A DNA stretch of 64,000 nt from contig NZ_FOTC01000002.1 in NCBI RefSeq assembly GCF_900114455.1, forward strand, positions 963,012 through 1,027,011, written 5' to 3'. This DNA is from Halogranum rubrum (GTDB lineage Archaea; Halobacteriota; Halobacteria; Halobacteriales; Haloferacaceae). The position numbers and the translations under genes were made by a program. A model generated the notes under the pieces. The model ran no database searches, was not told the origin of the DNA, and worked only from the letters and a program-made list of their open reading frames with translations. Of this stretch, positions 42,445 through 49,060 are shown piece by piece; within the stretch, counting starts at the first letter, position 1, and each line of letters opens with the position of its first letter.

Positions 42445-42528
42445 TGAATCTCACGGAGCAAATCTGGAGTCTGTACAATAAGTGTTTGGTAGCGGGTGAC
42501 GTATGGTGGTCTTTCACGGTGATAACTA

Positions 42529-42762: not shown

Positions 42763-42795
42763 AGTACTATGTGTGGAGTTACCAATAGACAGTCG

Positions 42796-43560
42796 ATGGT
42801 TACCAACACGACGGACCGGACCCTGAAGACGACAATTATGACCTTCAGGGTCGTCGAATTGCTCAAGGCACGAGATGGAGCAGGTGTGACCGAAGTCGCT
42901 CACGAACTCGACATCGCACCGAGTACTGCACACAACCACTTGAGTACGTTAGAAGCACAGCAGTACGTCGTCAAAGAGGGAGATACGTACCATCTCGGTC
43001 TTCGATTCATCGGTCTGGGAAACTTCGTTCGGACGCGGAAACAAGGATTTGGGAAAGCCGAACACTACACGACGGTGCTCTCGGAGGAGTCCGAGTGTCG
43101 CTCGATATTCACCGCAGAAGAGCACGGGCGCGGCGTGTACATCCACACAGCGCCCGGAAAACACGGCGTCTGGACGCAGTCGACGGTCGGAAAACGAGTC
43201 TATCTCCACTCTACGGCGAGCGGCAAAGCTATCCTCGCACACATGCCCCGAGAGCGAGTCGAGGAGATCGTCGAGCAGGTAGGACTTCCGCGGGAGACAG
43301 AACAGACGATAGACGACCAAGCAGACCTGTTCGCCGAACTCGAAACGGTCAGAGAGCGAGGATACGCGACGAACGTCGAAGAGCAAATCGAAGGCGTCCG
43401 GGCGATTGGAGCGCCCGTCTTGCAACCCGACGGAAGCGTATTCGGCGCGCTCAGCGTCGCAGGACCGTCGAATCGGATGAAAGGGGCTCGATTCGACGAA
43501 CTGACCGAAATCCTTCTGGGTATCGCGAACGAACTCGAACTGAGTATCGCTCTCTCGTGA
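42796..43560 (+). CDS. IclR family transcriptional regulator
   Basis: A 254-aa regulator from ATG 42796. An N-terminal winged helix-turn-helix (about 15-65, with GAGVTEVAHELDIAPSTAHNHLSTLEAQQYV) is followed by the IclR effector-binding domain (about 80-250, with GKRVYLHSTASGKAILAHMP and SVFGALSVAGP). Family members bind small carboxylic or aromatic ligands and control adjacent catabolic operons. A longer in-frame start at 42769 exists but would put the repeat at 42744-42762 almost on the start codon. Probable targets are the M20 gene and the importer cluster. Confidence 0.9.
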   Translation: MVTNTTDRTLKTTIMTFRVVELLKARDGAGVTEVAHELDIAPSTAHNHLSTLEAQQYVVKEGDTYHLGLRFIGLGNFVRTRKQGFGKAEHYTTVLSEESECRSIFTAEEHGRGVYIHTAPGKHGVWTQSTVGKRVYLHSTASGKAILAHMPRERVEEIVEQVGLPRETEQTIDDQADLFAELETVRERGYATNVEEQIEGVRAIGAPVLQPDGSVFGALSVAGPSNRMKGARFDELTEILLGIANELELSIALS

Positions 43561-44287: not shown

Positions 44288-45271
44288 ATGGTTCAAGGCG
44301 GCCCGATTGTCCAAATCGGCGTGATTCTTCTCTCGATACTGGGTCTGTGGATTGGTGCGCGGTTCTTAGTCGATGCCGTCGTACGGTTGGCTCGACGGTT
44401 CGGGCTCTCGGATCTCACGATCGGGCTGACTATCGTTGCGATGGGAACATCGACACCAGAGCTCGCGGTTTCGGTCGATGCTGCGCTCAAGGGTGCAGGT
44501 AATATCGCGGTTGCAAACGTCCTCGGCTCGAACATCTACAATCTGGCGTTTATTCTGGGCGTGATATCGCTGCTGAAGGTGATTCCAGTCGAAAAATCGC
44601 TTATTCATCGTGATGGCTTCGCTCTACTGGCAAGCACCCTCGTCGGTGGAATCGCAATTTTCGACCTCCAGATTACGAGGTTCGAGGGAACGCTCTTAGC
44701 GGGAGTGTTCGTCGCCTATACGGTCTATCTACTCCGCGCCAACCAGTCGGACTCGACGGTAACCACCAGTCAGTCACCCGAAGGGGGGGTGACCAGCCCA
44801 GTGACCGAGCGTGTGAACTTTCGCGGGCGTGACTTCGGACTTCTCCTGGGTGGACTAGCGCTGGTACTGGTGAGCGGCGACTACATGGTGGCAGCCGCTT
44901 CGGAGCTGGCCCGCAGCGTCGGTATCTCCGAGTGGGTAATCGGCGGGACGATCGTCGCAGCGGGTACGTCGACACCGGAGTTCGCCGTATCGCTGATGGC
45001 ACTCCAGCGAGGGAGCCTTGGCGTCTCGGTCGGAAACGTCGTCGGCAGCAACATCTACAATGTCACGGGAATCTTGGGTGTCGCAGCGGTCGTTAATCCT
45101 CTCGTAGTGAGTAGCCTGGCACTGGAGACGTTAGCATGGTTGGCTGGAATCTCTCTTCTGATGGTTGCCGCCCTCTGGACGGGACGAATCCTCTCTCGGT
45201 TGGAAGGTGCCTTACTTGCCACCTCTGAAATTGCTCGCTGGATTCTCGGTTTGCTTGGATTGGTCGGATAA
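44288..45271 (+). CDS. CaCA family calcium/sodium antiporter (YrbG-like)
   Basis: A 327-aa membrane protein with ten segments in two inverted halves. Alpha-1 repeat: GTSTPELAVS (53-62) with GNIAVANVLGSN (71-82). Alpha-2 repeat: GTSTPEFAVS with GNVVGSN near residues 225-255. These carry the ion-coordinating Thr, Glu and Asn residues of cation/Ca2+ exchangers. It exchanges Na+ for Ca2+ across the membrane. Codon use is less GC-biased than in the core genes (more ATC/ATT and GAT), in line with acquisition. Confidence 0.92.
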   Translation: MVQGGPIVQIGVILLSILGLWIGARFLVDAVVRLARRFGLSDLTIGLTIVAMGTSTPELAVSVDAALKGAGNIAVANVLGSNIYNLAFILGVISLLKVIPVEKSLIHRDGFALLASTLVGGIAIFDLQITRFEGTLLAGVFVAYTVYLLRANQSDSTVTTSQSPEGGVTSPVTERVNFRGRDFGLLLGGLALVLVSGDYMVAAASELARSVGISEWVIGGTIVAAGTSTPEFAVSLMALQRGSLGVSVGNVVGSNIYNVTGILGVAAVVNPLVVSSLALETLAWLAGISLLMVAALWTGRILSRLEGALLATSEIARWILGLLGLVG

Positions 45272-45582
45272 CCTATCTCGAACCCGGGGTGCACCGACCG
45301 AGTGACGGTTCTCGCCCGGAGTCTGACTCATGAAACCCGGACGGACGAGGTACCGTGTCGTCAGTCGAAATTGAGAAACGAGATAGCAGCTACTGGAAGA
45401 AGAATCAACCACCTGAGCAGCAATACAGGATTTGAGATGGTCGATTTCGACCACCGACTGCTCCTCTGTTCCACTTTGTCCAGGTGTCAAGCTGACGTTA
45501 CAGATTCCGACTACGTTGTCGCTCTCTGTCTGACATAGAGGAACGACGACGGTTTACCGATGACCCACGAATCGGCCGTTAG
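45272..45582. other. 311-bp spacer with a degenerate aroQ-3'-end-like repeat
   Basis: No gene is seen. The middle contains the repeat described at 45451-45526. The rest has mixed composition and no readable frame. Confidence 0.45.
45451..45526 (-). repeat. degenerate aroQ-3'-end-like repeat (copy D)
   Basis: On the minus strand 45483-45451 reads LDKVEQRSSRW, close to the chorismate mutase end LNKVEQRESR-stop at 48778-48746 (21 of 33 bases identical by my count). The next 43 bases (45484-45526) match 46728-46770 beside copy C at 33 of 43 positions. So C and D are related beyond the short core. Confidence 0.5.
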
Positions 45583-46584
45583 ATGAACTCGAAGCGGTGG
45601 CTTCAACGTCATCAAGTCGGCGTCTATGCAGTCTTCGTTCTCCTCGCCGTTGGCGTCGGAATCGGTCGCTCGAACTCGGCGACGCTTTTCGAGCGACTCA
45701 TCGACCCGATACTGGCCTCTCTGCTCTACGTCACGTTCCTCGAAATCCCGTTCGTCCGACTCCGTCGCGCATTCGCGAACGGGCGATTTGTTGCGGCAGC
45801 ACTGGGTATGAACTTCCTCGTCGTCCCTATCGTCGTCTGGGGACTCACTCGGTTCCTCCCCCAACGACCAGCCATTCTCGTGGGTGCGTTGATGGTGCTT
45901 CTGACACCGTGTATCGACTACGTGATTACCTTCACCGAACTCGCCGACGGCGACTCCGAACAGATTACCGCGACGACCCCAGCCCTGATGCTCGTCCAAC
46001 TGTTGTTGCTCCCGGCGTATCTGTGGCTGTTCATGGGTTCGGAAGTCGCGGAAGTCATCGAGCCGGGGCCGTTCGTCGAGGCGTTCTTGATAATCATCGC
46101 GCTCCCACTGACGCTCGCGTGGCTTACCGAAGTGTGGGCGGAACGGTCGTCGAGGGGTAACGCGTGGCAGGAGACGATGGGGTGGTTACCGGTTCCGATG
46201 ATGGGCGCGACGTTGTTCGTCGTCATCGCGTCACAACTTCCCCGGGTACAGAGTTCGATTGCACAGATTGCAGTCGTCGTTCCGGTGTACGTCGCCTTCC
46301 TCGTCGTTATGCCAATACTCGGACGACTCGCAGCGGGAGTCTTGCAGATGGATGCCGGGGAGGGTAGGGCGCTCGTGTTCACGTCGGTCACCCGTAACTC
46401 GCTGGTCGTCCTCCCACTCGCACTTGCGCTTCCGGCAGGTTATCGACTGGCACCTGCGGTCGTCGTGACACAAACGCTCGTCGAACTGGTCGGGATGGTT
46501 ACTCTGACGCGAGTCGTCCCGGCGTGGCTCGTACCGGACTCGCCGAAGCGACTCTCACTTTCCAGACTGACGAGTCGTAAGTGA
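45583..46584 (+). CDS. arsenic-resistance-like ACR3/bile acid:sodium symporter family transporter
   Basis: A 333-aa ten-helix membrane protein. YVTFLEIPFVRLRRAF at 49-64 and LLTPCIDYVITFTELADGD at 107-124, with Cys110, are typical of the ACR3-related BASS subgroup annotated as arsenic resistance protein; a Cys in TM4 is essential in true ACR3 arsenite pumps. No arsR, arsC or arsM gene is adjacent, so the substrate is open (arsenite, or an organic anion). The gene is bracketed by repeat copies D and C. Confidence 0.85.
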   Translation: MNSKRWLQRHQVGVYAVFVLLAVGVGIGRSNSATLFERLIDPILASLLYVTFLEIPFVRLRRAFANGRFVAAALGMNFLVVPIVVWGLTRFLPQRPAILVGALMVLLTPCIDYVITFTELADGDSEQITATTPALMLVQLLLLPAYLWLFMGSEVAEVIEPGPFVEAFLIIIALPLTLAWLTEVWAERSSRGNAWQETMGWLPVPMMGATLFVVIASQLPRVQSSIAQIAVVVPVYVAFLVVMPILGRLAAGVLQMDAGEGRALVFTSVTRNSLVVLPLALALPAGYRLAPAVVVTQTLVELVGMVTLTRVVPAWLVPDSPKRLSLSRLTSRK

Positions 46585-46694
46585 GGTCTATGGGAACCGT
46601 GTCCTCGTGCAACGACCGAGAGACGAGAGAGCAACTGCCCAAAGAAGAGTCAACTAACAAAACTGCGATACAGGTCTCAGAATCCCAAAATCAG

Positions 46695-46770
46695 CTACCG
46701 CTTCTCGCGCTGATGAACCTTGTTCGGGTCTCGGACTGATGTTACAGATTTCGTCTACTTTGCCGCTTTC
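46695..46770 (-). repeat. aroQ-3'-end-like repeat (copy C)
   Basis: The core 46695-46727 read on the minus strand gives NKVHQREKR-stop, the chorismate mutase C-terminus in a version that differs from the resident gene. It matches copy B at 31 of 33 bases. The adjacent 43 bases match the flank of copy D at 77 percent. Confidence 0.65.
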
Positions 46771-46820
46771 TCGACATCGGCCCCGACGATGGTCGCTTCT
46801 TCACCAAGTAGTGCGTAAGT

Positions 46821-47363
46821 TTAGAGTTCGTTCTCTTTCCACTGAACCAACTGTTGATGCCAATCAACGAACTCCTGAATCGTTCCCGCCGTCGTGCGTC
46901 TAATGCCCGCATCTTTCATCGTTGCGACGACGGTCTCGGCTAACTCTGCGACTGCGTTGTATAGCGTCTTCGGCTGAAGACGGTACTGGTGGGCTCCGAT
47001 TGGATTTCCGACTAAGTCCTCCATAATCAGTCTGGTCTCCGAATCTACCGTTTCGAGCCGCCAATCAAGATACGCACATCCTCTATCCCCGCAAACACAA
47101 CAAAATGGGTTTGCGCTTGCGGAGCCAGTCCTCTCGAATTCACTACTCATCTCAAACATCGATTTCACGGTATCCGATACGTCGAACTCATCCGGAATTC
47201 TCCGCTCTACACACAGTTCATCCCCGTTCAGATAGAGATGGACTCGGCCAATTACTGCAGAACCATACAGTCGTGTGCCCTCTCGAAAATCCACTCCTGC
47301 TTCGACGTAATCTAGTTTCTCTGTCTCGAATCGAATTGTTCTGAGCAGAGGCCTGTTGTTCAT
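46821..47363 (-). CDS. unknown protein with Cys cluster CCxCGDxGC
   Basis: A 180-aa protein unlike its neighbours in base and codon use (low GC, few GAC/GTC runs). It starts MNNRPLLRTIRFETEKLDY, has a Cys-rich turn FCCVCGDRGCAYLDW at about residues 86-100, and a helical C-terminal half ending in EFVDWHQQLVQWKENEL. A C-x-C-G-x-x-G-C turn occurs in some bacterial proteins of unknown function, and it could bind zinc. I recognise no family. It is the only gene between repeat copies C and B. Confidence 0.7.
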   Translation of the reverse strand: MNNRPLLRTIRFETEKLDYVEAGVDFREGTRLYGSAVIGRVHLYLNGDELCVERRIPDEFDVSDTVKSMFEMSSEFERTGSASANPFCCVCGDRGCAYLDWRLETVDSETRLIMEDLVGNPIGAHQYRLQPKTLYNAVAELAETVVATMKDAGIRRTTAGTIQEFVDWHQQLVQWKENEL

Positions 47364-47448
47364 TTTAGAAGCAGTTACTAGAACGAGAGATAAATCTTAT
47401 TAGCTAATTAGACAGTAGTGTTCAATATTCTCTCTCGAATGTTATATG

Positions 47449-47481
47449 CTACCGCTTCTCGCGCTTATGAACCTTGTTCAG
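47449..47481 (-). repeat. aroQ-3'-end-like repeat (copy B)
   Basis: On the minus strand the core and its 5' flank read VIELNKVHKREKR-stop, matching LIELNKVEQRESR-stop of the resident chorismate mutase. The core is 31 of 33 bases identical to copy C. It lies between the Cys-cluster gene and the alpha/beta hydrolase gene. Confidence 0.65.
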
Positions 47482-47586
47482 TTCAATAACTCACGTAACA
47501 CGGTCGCGTGTACTTTTCCGGTATCCAAGTATCCCTTCTGTGGTAGTTGGTGATCGTTCATCTCTCTCGCGTCCGAACAGTTGTGT

Positions 47587-48372
47587 TCACTCGTCGTTCG
47601 CAGTGCTCGTAAGGATTAGTTCGGTCGCCTCGTCGGGAGCGTCCCAATGAGGGTAATGCCCACTGTCCTCGAACCAGTACAACTGAGCGTTGGGGAACCT
47701 GTCCAGCGCGCGTTTTGCCTGCCTGGGCAGGGTAACTCGATCCTTGCGCCCCCATCCGATTACGACCGATCCCGGTGTGGAGTCCGTCCCCGGTTGGCTC
47801 GGGCCGAACGCCAACCGACGAAGTAGTTCGTCAAACGACGGCGAGTCGGCGAAGGTCCGCATCTCCTCCCGTGTGACCTCGGCGGAGAGGTCCCAGGGCC
47901 GTGCCGAGAGCTGAATCAGGAGCATGGTCCGACCGACGGCACTCCCCATCAGCCGGTCCATCACGGGTTGGAGGAGGCGAACGAGACGTATCGAGGGGGC
48001 GAGCGTCGCGTAGAAGAAGTACCGCTCCCACCCCTTCCAGAACCCACCGGGATCGAGTGCAACGGTTGTGCCGACCTCCCCGCGGCGCGCGAGTTCGAGG
48101 ACGAGTCGCGCTCCCATCGAGTTGCCGACCACGTCGACGCCGGCGAGGTCGTTCGCATCGAGAAACGAAGTGACGGCATCGGCAAGGGTGTCGATGGATA
48201 CTTCACCGGAGAGCGCCGGCGTCTCCCCGTGACCCGGGAGGTCCACTGCGACGACTTCCCGTTCGGCGGCCAACCCGTCGAGGATGGGGGTCCACGTCCG
48301 CCAACTCCCGCCCAGTCCGTGGATCAAGAGTAACGGTTCACCGGACCCGCGACAGACGTGATTCATCTCCAT
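47587..48372 (-). CDS. alpha/beta hydrolase
   Basis: A 261-aa hydrolase of the MhpC/BioH-like type. The oxyanion region is LLLIHGLGGSWRTW (14-27) and VDLPGHGETP follows. The nucleophile elbow is GNSMGA (Ser near residue 85), the acid lies in GWGRKDRVTLP, and the catalytic His is in DSGHYPHWD near the C-terminus. It is cytoplasmic; the substrate is unknown. It sits between repeat copy B and the aroQ 3' end and so is probably part of an acquired segment. Confidence 0.9.
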   Translation of the reverse strand: MEMNHVCRGSGEPLLLIHGLGGSWRTWTPILDGLAAEREVVAVDLPGHGETPALSGEVSIDTLADAVTSFLDANDLAGVDVVGNSMGARLVLELARRGEVGTTVALDPGGFWKGWERYFFYATLAPSIRLVRLLQPVMDRLMGSAVGRTMLLIQLSARPWDLSAEVTREEMRTFADSPSFDELLRRLAFGPSQPGTDSTPGSVVIGWGRKDRVTLPRQAKRALDRFPNAQLYWFEDSGHYPHWDAPDEATELILTSTANDE

Positions 48373-48745
48373 ACACTACTAGGGGGACTCCAGGGTTGTA
48401 TCAGTTCGTGTACGAAATCGAAACTCGTCGTCGCGTGCCGCTCGCGGTTGTCCACGAACAGCGATTCTGCGTCAGGGGATGTTGGCCACTGAACGACATC
48501 TGATTGAACGGAATACGGTCGCAATCCGACCGTCTTGTCGAGGCCCCTCGGCAGGGACTCGATACCGCTGGCGTCCCTGACTCGTGAGTCGCCAGTCGAG
48601 CCCCGCCAGTCGATGAGTCAGGCAGTCGACCGACCGACGGTTGCGTCGGGGCCCAGCAGGAGGGTCCCGTCCAGTGACTCGAGGCCGATGTTGTACTCGT
48701 TAGCTCCGTAGATACAGGTACGTAAACGGGACGTCCGGGTCCCTA
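48373..48745. other. 373-bp spacer between hydrolase and aroQ
   Basis: No recognisable gene. On the minus strand about 27 codons near 48705-48625 are open and acidic (ANEYNIGLESLDGTLLLGPD) before a stop, which may be the tail of a lost gene. Short repeated words (GACTCG, CAGTCGA) occur at 48590-48630. Confidence 0.4.
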
Positions 48746-49060
48746 CTACCTGCTTTCCCGCTGCTCTACCTTGTTCAACTCGATGAGTAACCGGAAAATC
48801 GCTTTCACCAGATTCGCGTCGACTTCGAACCGTTCGGCGTTCAGGCCAGCACGCTCCATCACTTTATCCTCCTGCGATTCGTCCGTCGTCGGCAGGTCTT
48901 GTTCGGCTTTGACCTGTGCGACGGTGTCGGCGACGTAGGTTCGCCGGGCGATGAGTTCGACGATTTCACGGTCGATGTCCTCTATCTCTTCGCGCAGTTC
49001 GTCCAGGCTCATGTCCTCCGGTCGTATCTCGGTCATCTCGTTCGTCTCGTTCTGTGTCAT
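48746..49060 (-). CDS. aroQ: chorismate mutase (AroQ type)
   Basis: A 104-aa all-helical chorismate mutase making prephenate for Phe/Tyr synthesis. LDELREEIEDIDREIVELIARRTYVADTVAQVKAEQ holds the active-site Arg residues of helix 1, followed by the Lys of VAQVKAEQ, and the last helix is LVKAIFRLLIELNKVEQ. ATG 49060 overlaps the shikimate kinase stop by 4 bp. Its last codons (48778-48746) are the sequence that recurs in degenerate form at three places downstream. Confidence 0.92.
   Translation of the reverse strand: MTQNETNEMTEIRPEDMSLDELREEIEDIDREIVELIARRTYVADTVAQVKAEQDLPTTDESQEDKVMERAGLNAERFEVDANLVKAIFRLLIELNKVEQRESR

Follow-up and report, generated by a model that had tools for sequence, protein, structure and literature searches.

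The locus considered here raises the question of how a low-GC gene for an unrecognised protein came to lie between two copies of a repeat beside the chorismate mutase (CM) gene of Halogranum rubrum, and what role this protein may play. The window, i.e. the whole 64-kb stretch of DNA analysed, shows a GC content of 63.3% versus 50.1% for the orphan gene, which descends from an ATG start at position 47363 to position 46821 on the minus strand and displays 52.5% GC at third codon positions (GC3), compared with GC3 values of 0.73 for the CM gene and 0.81 for an AAA ATPase gene. The encoded protein comprises 180 residues, with the sequence CCVCGDRGC at residues 88-96. A sequence-only reading had described a low-GC gene with codon use unlike the core, encoding an unrecognised protein with a CCxCGDxGC turn and representing the only cargo between repeat copies C and B. 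This description holds: the composition and codon statistics set the gene apart, no family matches the protein above cut-off, the repeats are real, and the orphan gene is the sole gene called between copies B and C (caller minimum, 55 aa). The features of the locus are as follows.

46821..47363, minus strand: orphan Cys-cluster gene for a 180-aa protein with CCVCGDRGC, alone in its cassette (ORF, codon statistics, homologue alignment)
46726..47479, minus strand: Cys cassette, 754 bp, reaching from core B, itself included, up to core C (site and interval scan)
47471..47479, minus strand: copy B, core GAACAAGGT, then a CM-like tail with stop codon
46717..46725, minus strand: copy C, core GAACAAGGT, with the right-end motif ATCTGTAACATCAGTCCGAGACCC before the core
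45473..45481, minus strand: copy A, diverged core GGACAAAGT, right-end motif ATCTGTAACGTCAG
48746..49060, minus strand: chorismate mutase (CM_2) gene, its 3' end being the anchor site (CM_2, E 1.5e-18)
48768..48776, minus strand: core GAACAAGGT within the CM 3' end
47480..48776, minus strand: alpha/beta-hydrolase cassette, 1297 bp, gene at 47587-48372 (98.7% identical to the cassette of genome G338)
45482..46725, minus strand: 1244-bp cassette with an SBF-family transporter, the gene lying on the plus strand at 45583-46584

At a tolerance of 3 mismatches, the 31-bp repeat word has two occurrences in the window and 0 in 100 shuffles. Copies B and C, together with the diverged copy A, resemble the 3' end of the CM gene; in the reading direction of CM, GAACAAGGT is common to copies B and C and to the CM gene, and in each it leads into a version of the CM tail with a stop codon after it. 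The orphan gene is very probably the lone cargo of a mobile 754-bp cassette that belongs to a tandem array at the CM 3' end and is moved by an unspecified site-specific recombinase acting in trans. The alignments indicate that cassettes start and end at the core TGAACAAGGT, with a CM-like tail and its stop codon keeping CM intact, and that they share right-end motifs and recur across genomes with differing neighbours.

Three genera carry the same single-gene Cys unit at their CM 3' ends, which strongly supports the earlier proposal that the gene is cassette cargo. The Cys cassette is second in the window array and first, directly behind CM, in G024 and G313, whose genes are the two close relatives of the orphan gene (84-87%; other genera, same family). 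The window cassette is 86% identical to that of G024 and 85% to that of G313 inside, versus 53-54% past the right core, whereas G024 and G313 are 94% identical to each other inside and 51% past the right core. In both genomes the CM tail reads HQRENR, and the cassette is followed by tail-like sequence and a short stretch, TAGYCGAAWTC...TTTCAGGG; a similar stretch sits directly after CM in G001, G101, and G058. The Cys cassette is thus read as having been inserted into the CM 3' end, with the gene restored. A hydrolase, an SBF transporter, CNNM/CorC, and DUF2270 are the genes that adjoin the orphan gene across the window, G024, and G313.

The clearest evidence of sharp boundaries comes from the hydrolase cassette, 1297 bp long both in the genome of the window and in G338, from another family, with 1289 of 1306 positions identical and no gaps; the identity block starts at the core inside CM and stops at the next core, with CM upstream 76-81% identical and resemblance confined to the CM tail past the next core. 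Altogether, 13 same-label cassette pairs between genomes are 73-99% identical inside versus 39-54% past the right core in all cases. Two pairs adjacent to CM, AbrB-PIN (79% inside versus 78% outside) and VapBC (73% versus 84%), lend no support to recent exchange on the left side. Position within the array also varies, the LysE cassette taking first place in G021 but fourth in G135, and the MazEF cassette second in G228 and third in G135. The CM tails are in frame in 28 of 30 loci, the other two having been mis-parsed by the script, and the changed tails in G024, G313, and G395 are read as replaced tails.

The pattern is much wider than the earlier reading could show. A 32-nt right-end pattern (up to 3 mismatches) matches 5 of the 170 family genomes, 3 of them new as the pattern was built from sites including those of the window and G024, with 0 matches in the reversed control; all five matches lie 0.7-2.0 kb downstream of CM. 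Of the 391 Halobacteria genomes, 300 contain a core-plus-CM-tail pattern (0 for its reversal among the matches listed) and 125 contain it two or more times by hand count, both being rough counts that tails with other stop codons may escape; a single match is probably the CM gene proper in most cases. Among the places listed, some matches lie away from CM, as in G039 and G005 (separate places) and in G024 (strand opposite to its CM). The stray att-like site of G039 (L090, C1:1875931), far from CM, was seen by eye to lie beside a PemK-like fragment and IS-like genes.

The scan for sites covered 37 loci, including the window and four named Natrialbaceae plasmid regions, most of them chosen from search matches, so that the share of arrays is not a frequency. 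Two or more sites are present in 34 of the 37 loci, delimiting 62 intervals of 276 to 6265 bp (median, 950 bp), with 50 under 1.5 kb, 12 at 1.5 kb or more, and one, of 276 bp, holding no called gene. In 19 loci, the site was found 55 times in the sense orientation, 0 times in antisense, and 0 times in reversed sequence. The consensus derived from 60 cassette sites, ACCTGAACAAGGT, comprises an imperfect palindrome, ACCT-GAACA-AGGT, that leads into the CM tail; the right ends preceding ACCTG fall into at least two types, CTGTAACGTCAGTCCGAG and ATGGTGGATTTCAGCT.

As to cargo, a toxin of one of six reference types occurs in 29 of the 62 intervals (phmmer E 1e-4) and is missing from 33, with a labelled antitoxin accompanying the toxin in 28 of the 29. 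Integrons, too, are rich in toxin-antitoxin cassettes. Pfam confirmed RHH_1, ParE_toxin, PIN, and PemK_toxin in typical toxin-antitoxin members, the same scan giving no match for the AbrB-like partner, and assigned other cargo to LysE, Abhydrolase, SBF, and Na_Ca_ex. On plasmids, the annotations behind the shikimate kinase and chorismate mutase genes include PIN with AbrB, RelE/ParE with RHH, PemK/MazF, VapBC, GNAT, and Nramp. These are large Natrialbaceae plasmids (L121-L124) that carry both metabolic genes with small cassettes behind them, L123 displaying four toxin-antitoxin pairs in a row. A further locus, L072 (G197), has a second chorismate mutase gene on the same contig, about 4 kb from the first, and a toxin-antitoxin interval behind each. 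A carbonic anhydrase-like gene, perhaps the ancestral neighbour of CM, was seen by eye downstream of the array in L010, L041, L073, L089, L095, L096, and L098. With regard to a possible attP on viruses, viral_contigs contain 0 matches to the exact CM-tail pattern, and a looser 22-mer matches 22 contigs of 2.9 million viral ones, a degenerate short pattern for which chance matches may well occur.

Cassette movement would proceed by conservative site-specific recombination at the core, with the enzyme supplied in trans and most likely being a tyrosine recombinase from another part of the host genome. Among the 127 ORFs called in the intervals, not one matches the assembled set of tyrosine recombinases, which two positive controls do match; this set holds 40 of the 48 listed matches (7 of 14 in G384, 9 of 10 in G289), with ORFs picked by a rough rule. 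No PF00589 match lies within 51 kb of CM in any of eight array genomes, the nearest one being further off or on a different contig. One orthologous group of tyrosine recombinases, 344-362 aa long and with XerA and XerD among its few solved sequence relatives, is present in all eight and is the candidate for a Xer-like host enzyme acting in trans; it may also be a housekeeping recombinase only, since presence in eight of eight genomes is expected of either. Tyrosine recombinase genes also lie beyond the carbonic anhydrase-like gene in two loci of one genus (L095, 4128-5234; L096, 3856-4911, oriented coordinates), but none is so placed in the other loci inspected by eye, and the ortholog common to the eight genomes is preferred as the cassette enzyme.

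Two other accounts of the array deserve consideration. The repeats might serve ordinary homologous recombination as nothing more than short homologies, with the CM 3' end as a generic hotspot of gene gain without a dedicated recombinase, an account to which the interval ORFs, free of tyrosine recombinases, and the conserved CM gene, able to supply one-sided homology, are favourable. Nevertheless, it appears highly unlikely given that the shared core amounts to only ~10 bp, with identity falling to 39-54% past the right core in 13 of 13 pairs, that the right-end motifs common to cassettes are missing from CM, that the sites keep one orientation (55 to 0), and that the 98.7% identity block of the hydrolase cassette ends within the core on both sides. 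A true integron, with IntI and attC sites, would likewise show tandem, mostly small cassettes, and both clusters of cassettes without an integrase (CALINs) are common and some archaea carry integrons, according to one study (PMC9668308). This identity is extremely improbable: single-strand folds of four cassette sites and the CM site give z values of 0.70, -1.36, -0.98, 0.32, and -0.04 against shuffles, not clearly more stable; the arrays are anchored in the 3' end of a coding gene, not at an attI beside intI; and no integrase is found in the intervals or within 51 kb in the eight genomes, although this last feature alone does not set the arrays apart from CALINs.

The preferred reading, a cassette array served by a recombinase in trans, describes a platform that is both integron-like and dif-module-like. 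Tandem integron cassettes are exchanged between species, often without an adjacent integrase (PMC9668308), a likeness that extends to the CM arrays; the latter differ in having no attC-like hairpin and no nearby integrase in the tested genomes, and in being anchored in the chorismate mutase gene. The dif (pdif) modules of Acinetobacter plasmids comprise adaptive genes, including toxin-antitoxin pairs, flanked by Xer-type sites and mobilised through the dif/Xer system of the host, with a 28-bp dif-like site and a mainly plasmid location (PMC6449649). They resemble the present cassettes as short site-bounded modules with toxin-antitoxin and other adaptive cargo (here, median 950 bp), whereas the CM arrays display a protein-gene 3' end as anchor, a tail supplied by the cassettes, one orientation across 19 loci, and a candidate recombinase only. 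Integrative elements at gene 3' ends, such as those of tRNA-targeting archaeal integrases, share the duplicated gene end that leaves the target intact (PMC8371274, for tRNA sites). The ORFs called in the cassette intervals match no tyrosine recombinase of the collected set, whereas gene-3'-end integrative elements usually encode their own. SCC elements at rlmH, for instance, integrate into the 3' end of that gene and restore it.

A broader interpretation, somewhat favoured, is that of a cassette platform extending across the class Halobacteria, in which the CM 3' end would serve as universal dock and a host-encoded Xer-like recombinase would act in trans on toxin-antitoxin-rich arrays traded between families and onto plasmids, the Cys protein being one cargo and perhaps the founding member of a new immunity-like family. 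If so, haloarchaea would trade genes, toxin-antitoxin pairs above all, via a defined dock in a metabolic gene, in the manner of bacterial integrons and dif modules. This would provide a direct route for intergeneric gene exchange, which has been reported between haloarchaeal genera (abstract of PMC6011602), as well as cargo genes to screen for roles in defence or competition and, in the 10-bp docking core within a conserved gene, a possible genetic tool. No report of the CM 3' end as an integration or cassette site is present among the literature matches listed on haloarchaeal integration, cassettes, and toxin-antitoxin hotspots, a body of text with most subscription journals and preprints outside its coverage. 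The main text of the review on archaeal tyrosine recombinases (PMC8371274) contains 'chorismate' and 'cassette' 0 times, and the archaeal integron paper (PMC9668308) contains 'Halobacter' and 'halophil' 0 times.

Turning to the cargo protein, the orphan family comprises 7 full-length members in 391 Halobacteria genomes, own genome included, with 3 in the 170 genomes of the family Haloferacaceae and 1 in the 3 of the genus; a phylum sample of 392 genomes yields 2 full-length members and one fragment. Two matches were left out of the count of seven: that in G292 lies in another frame of an archaeosortase-like region, as judged by eye, and that in G081 (L030) is a 32-residue Cys-family fragment with a stop codon, possibly a pseudogene. 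Close homologues present as conserved chromosomal genes in most haloarchaea would have told against the sequence-only reading; the counts show that they are not. Between genera, NG86 dN/dS values of 0.070/0.379, 0.089/0.327, and 0.027/0.099 (0.18-0.27) indicate that purifying selection acts on the gene. The residues invariant in seven aligned sequences include C89, C91, C96, F87, W101, D116, G119, I122, G123, and Y127, while C88 is missing from one of the seven.

Besides the cassette-borne genes of G024 and G313, four distant homologues (27-35%) are located elsewhere, and no att-like site occurs in the 15-17 kb flanking each of them, so that the gene family is not tied to cassettes. Pfam scans of ten of their neighbours show neither a toxin nor a restriction gene above cut-off; these neighbours are metabolic, ribosomal, transport, beta-propeller, or unassigned proteins, together with one homing-endonuclease-associated repeat protein; the beta-propeller neighbour shows a SUKH-4 immunity match just under cut-off (24.5 versus 25.5 bits). 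A VapBC pair (PIN, VAPB_antitox; L011, 12816-13446) lies 4.2 kb from the G177 homologue.

Searches of Pfam, NCBIfam, PADLOC, and PHROGs give the orphan protein no match above cut-off or at E 0.001. A DUF294 identity (PF03445) was rejected at 16.5 bits versus the Pfam cut-off of 21, with one of seven homologues matching, as was any identity from PDB sequence profiles (best E 0.19). Among the anti-phage defence models of PADLOC-DB, the orphan protein has no match, and one of the seven homologues resembles HEC-01B at only E 0.041. The distant homologue of G177 matches phrog_8242 at E 2e-4 over residues 36-98; a search for this phage family retrieves the G177 locus only (1 of 6 genomes; 0 of 14 controls), and phrog_8242 serves as a lead to the identity of the orphan family. 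The gene is absent from viral_contigs, phages gave one chance match at E 4, and plasmids gave no accepted match, 222 weak ones having been dropped and those shown having E 1 or worse.

The AlphaFold2 model of the orphan protein, built from a three-row alignment, has pLDDT 75 and pTM 0.75, with the Cys turn partly ill-modelled (residues 92-95, pLDDT under 50). Its top match in Foldseek and VIA is the immunity protein CdiI of Enterobacter cloacae (4ntq_B; Foldseek E 9e-3, probability 1.0; VIA Z 6.7 over 106 residues at 3.5 A), with other immunity proteins at Z 5.1, 4.7, and 4.1 (5hkq, CDI complex chain) and Pur-alpha chains at Z 4.8-5.7. The model of a homologue, which has lower confidence (pLDDT 59), also ranks 4ntq_B first (Z 7.5, 116 residues, 3.5 A), with Pur-alpha at Z 5.0-6.2 and a tie in Foldseek, where 8chv_B equals CdiI at E 4.8e-2; it uses the same three-row alignment and is not independent evidence. 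Whirly proteins appear lower in the lists of both models. No fold match reaches Z 8, and values under 8 may, according to the tool, mean merely a common arrangement; the Foldseek and VIA lists leave room for other folds. The best predicted viral structure is A0A7D0KZ26 (E 7.8e-4, TM 0.39).

From these models one can only infer that the protein is immunity-like. The cargo protein would be small and soluble, with a CdiI/Pur/Whirly-like beta-sheet-plus-helix fold and a Cys cluster, would bind a toxin or nucleic acid, and would be kept by protecting the carrier or itself; as a whole, this proposal is tentative and rather doubtful. The comparison with CdiI (4ntq, 5ffp, 5hkq) and NMB0503 (4q7o) relies on 4ntq_B as best-ranked fold neighbour in two predicted models, against 8% identity, Z below 8, and the lack of a toxin gene adjoining the orphan gene, CdiI immunity proteins being encoded beside their cognate cdiA toxin. 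An alternative with a reasonable chance, albeit short of probable, is that of a nucleic-acid- or metal-binding regulator with a Pur-alpha/Whirly-like fold and a housekeeping or stress role instead of immunity: Pur-alpha ranks near CdiI, with one tie in E-value, and Whirly proteins further down; the conserved C89, C91, and C96 could hold a metal; and the distant homologues adjoin metabolic and other genes. Against this regulator stand the four fold lists, all headed by CdiI 4ntq_B (one tie), and, for a housekeeping role, the sporadic presence of the gene. The frequency of toxin intervals, nearly all with a labelled antitoxin, the solitary VapB antitoxin of one interval (L094), and the VapBC pair near the G177 homologue would suit half a toxin-antitoxin module, i.e. 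a solitary antitoxin or a toxin with a lost partner, yet this is unlikely for a protein that matches no toxin or antitoxin family above cut-off and whose gene has no companion in any of its three cassettes.

What the sequence-only reading had said of function thus stands in part. A selectable or selfish role fits both the purifying selection and the toxin-antitoxin cassettes of the arrays. The suggested link to immunity or defence finds a weak similarity to the CdiI fold on its side, with Pur-alpha close behind, and no PADLOC, Pfam, or NCBIfam family.

Beyond copy A, the low-GC DNA contains short CAGATACGGGAGAGACGAA-like repeats at 42524, 42739, and 43686 that flank an IclR-type gene (42769-43560); a defence assignment of this gene was rejected, as the CasR/CARF/Csa3 matches in PADLOC (E 9e-7 to 9e-4) extend over the helix-turn-helix and Pfam assigns IclR. 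A Na/Ca exchanger gene in the same direction (44288-45271) has a close counterpart, together with an SBF transporter, in the CM-side region of G395 (L039), and the presence of exchanger and SBF transporter near CM in both G395 and the window suggests a shared older array.
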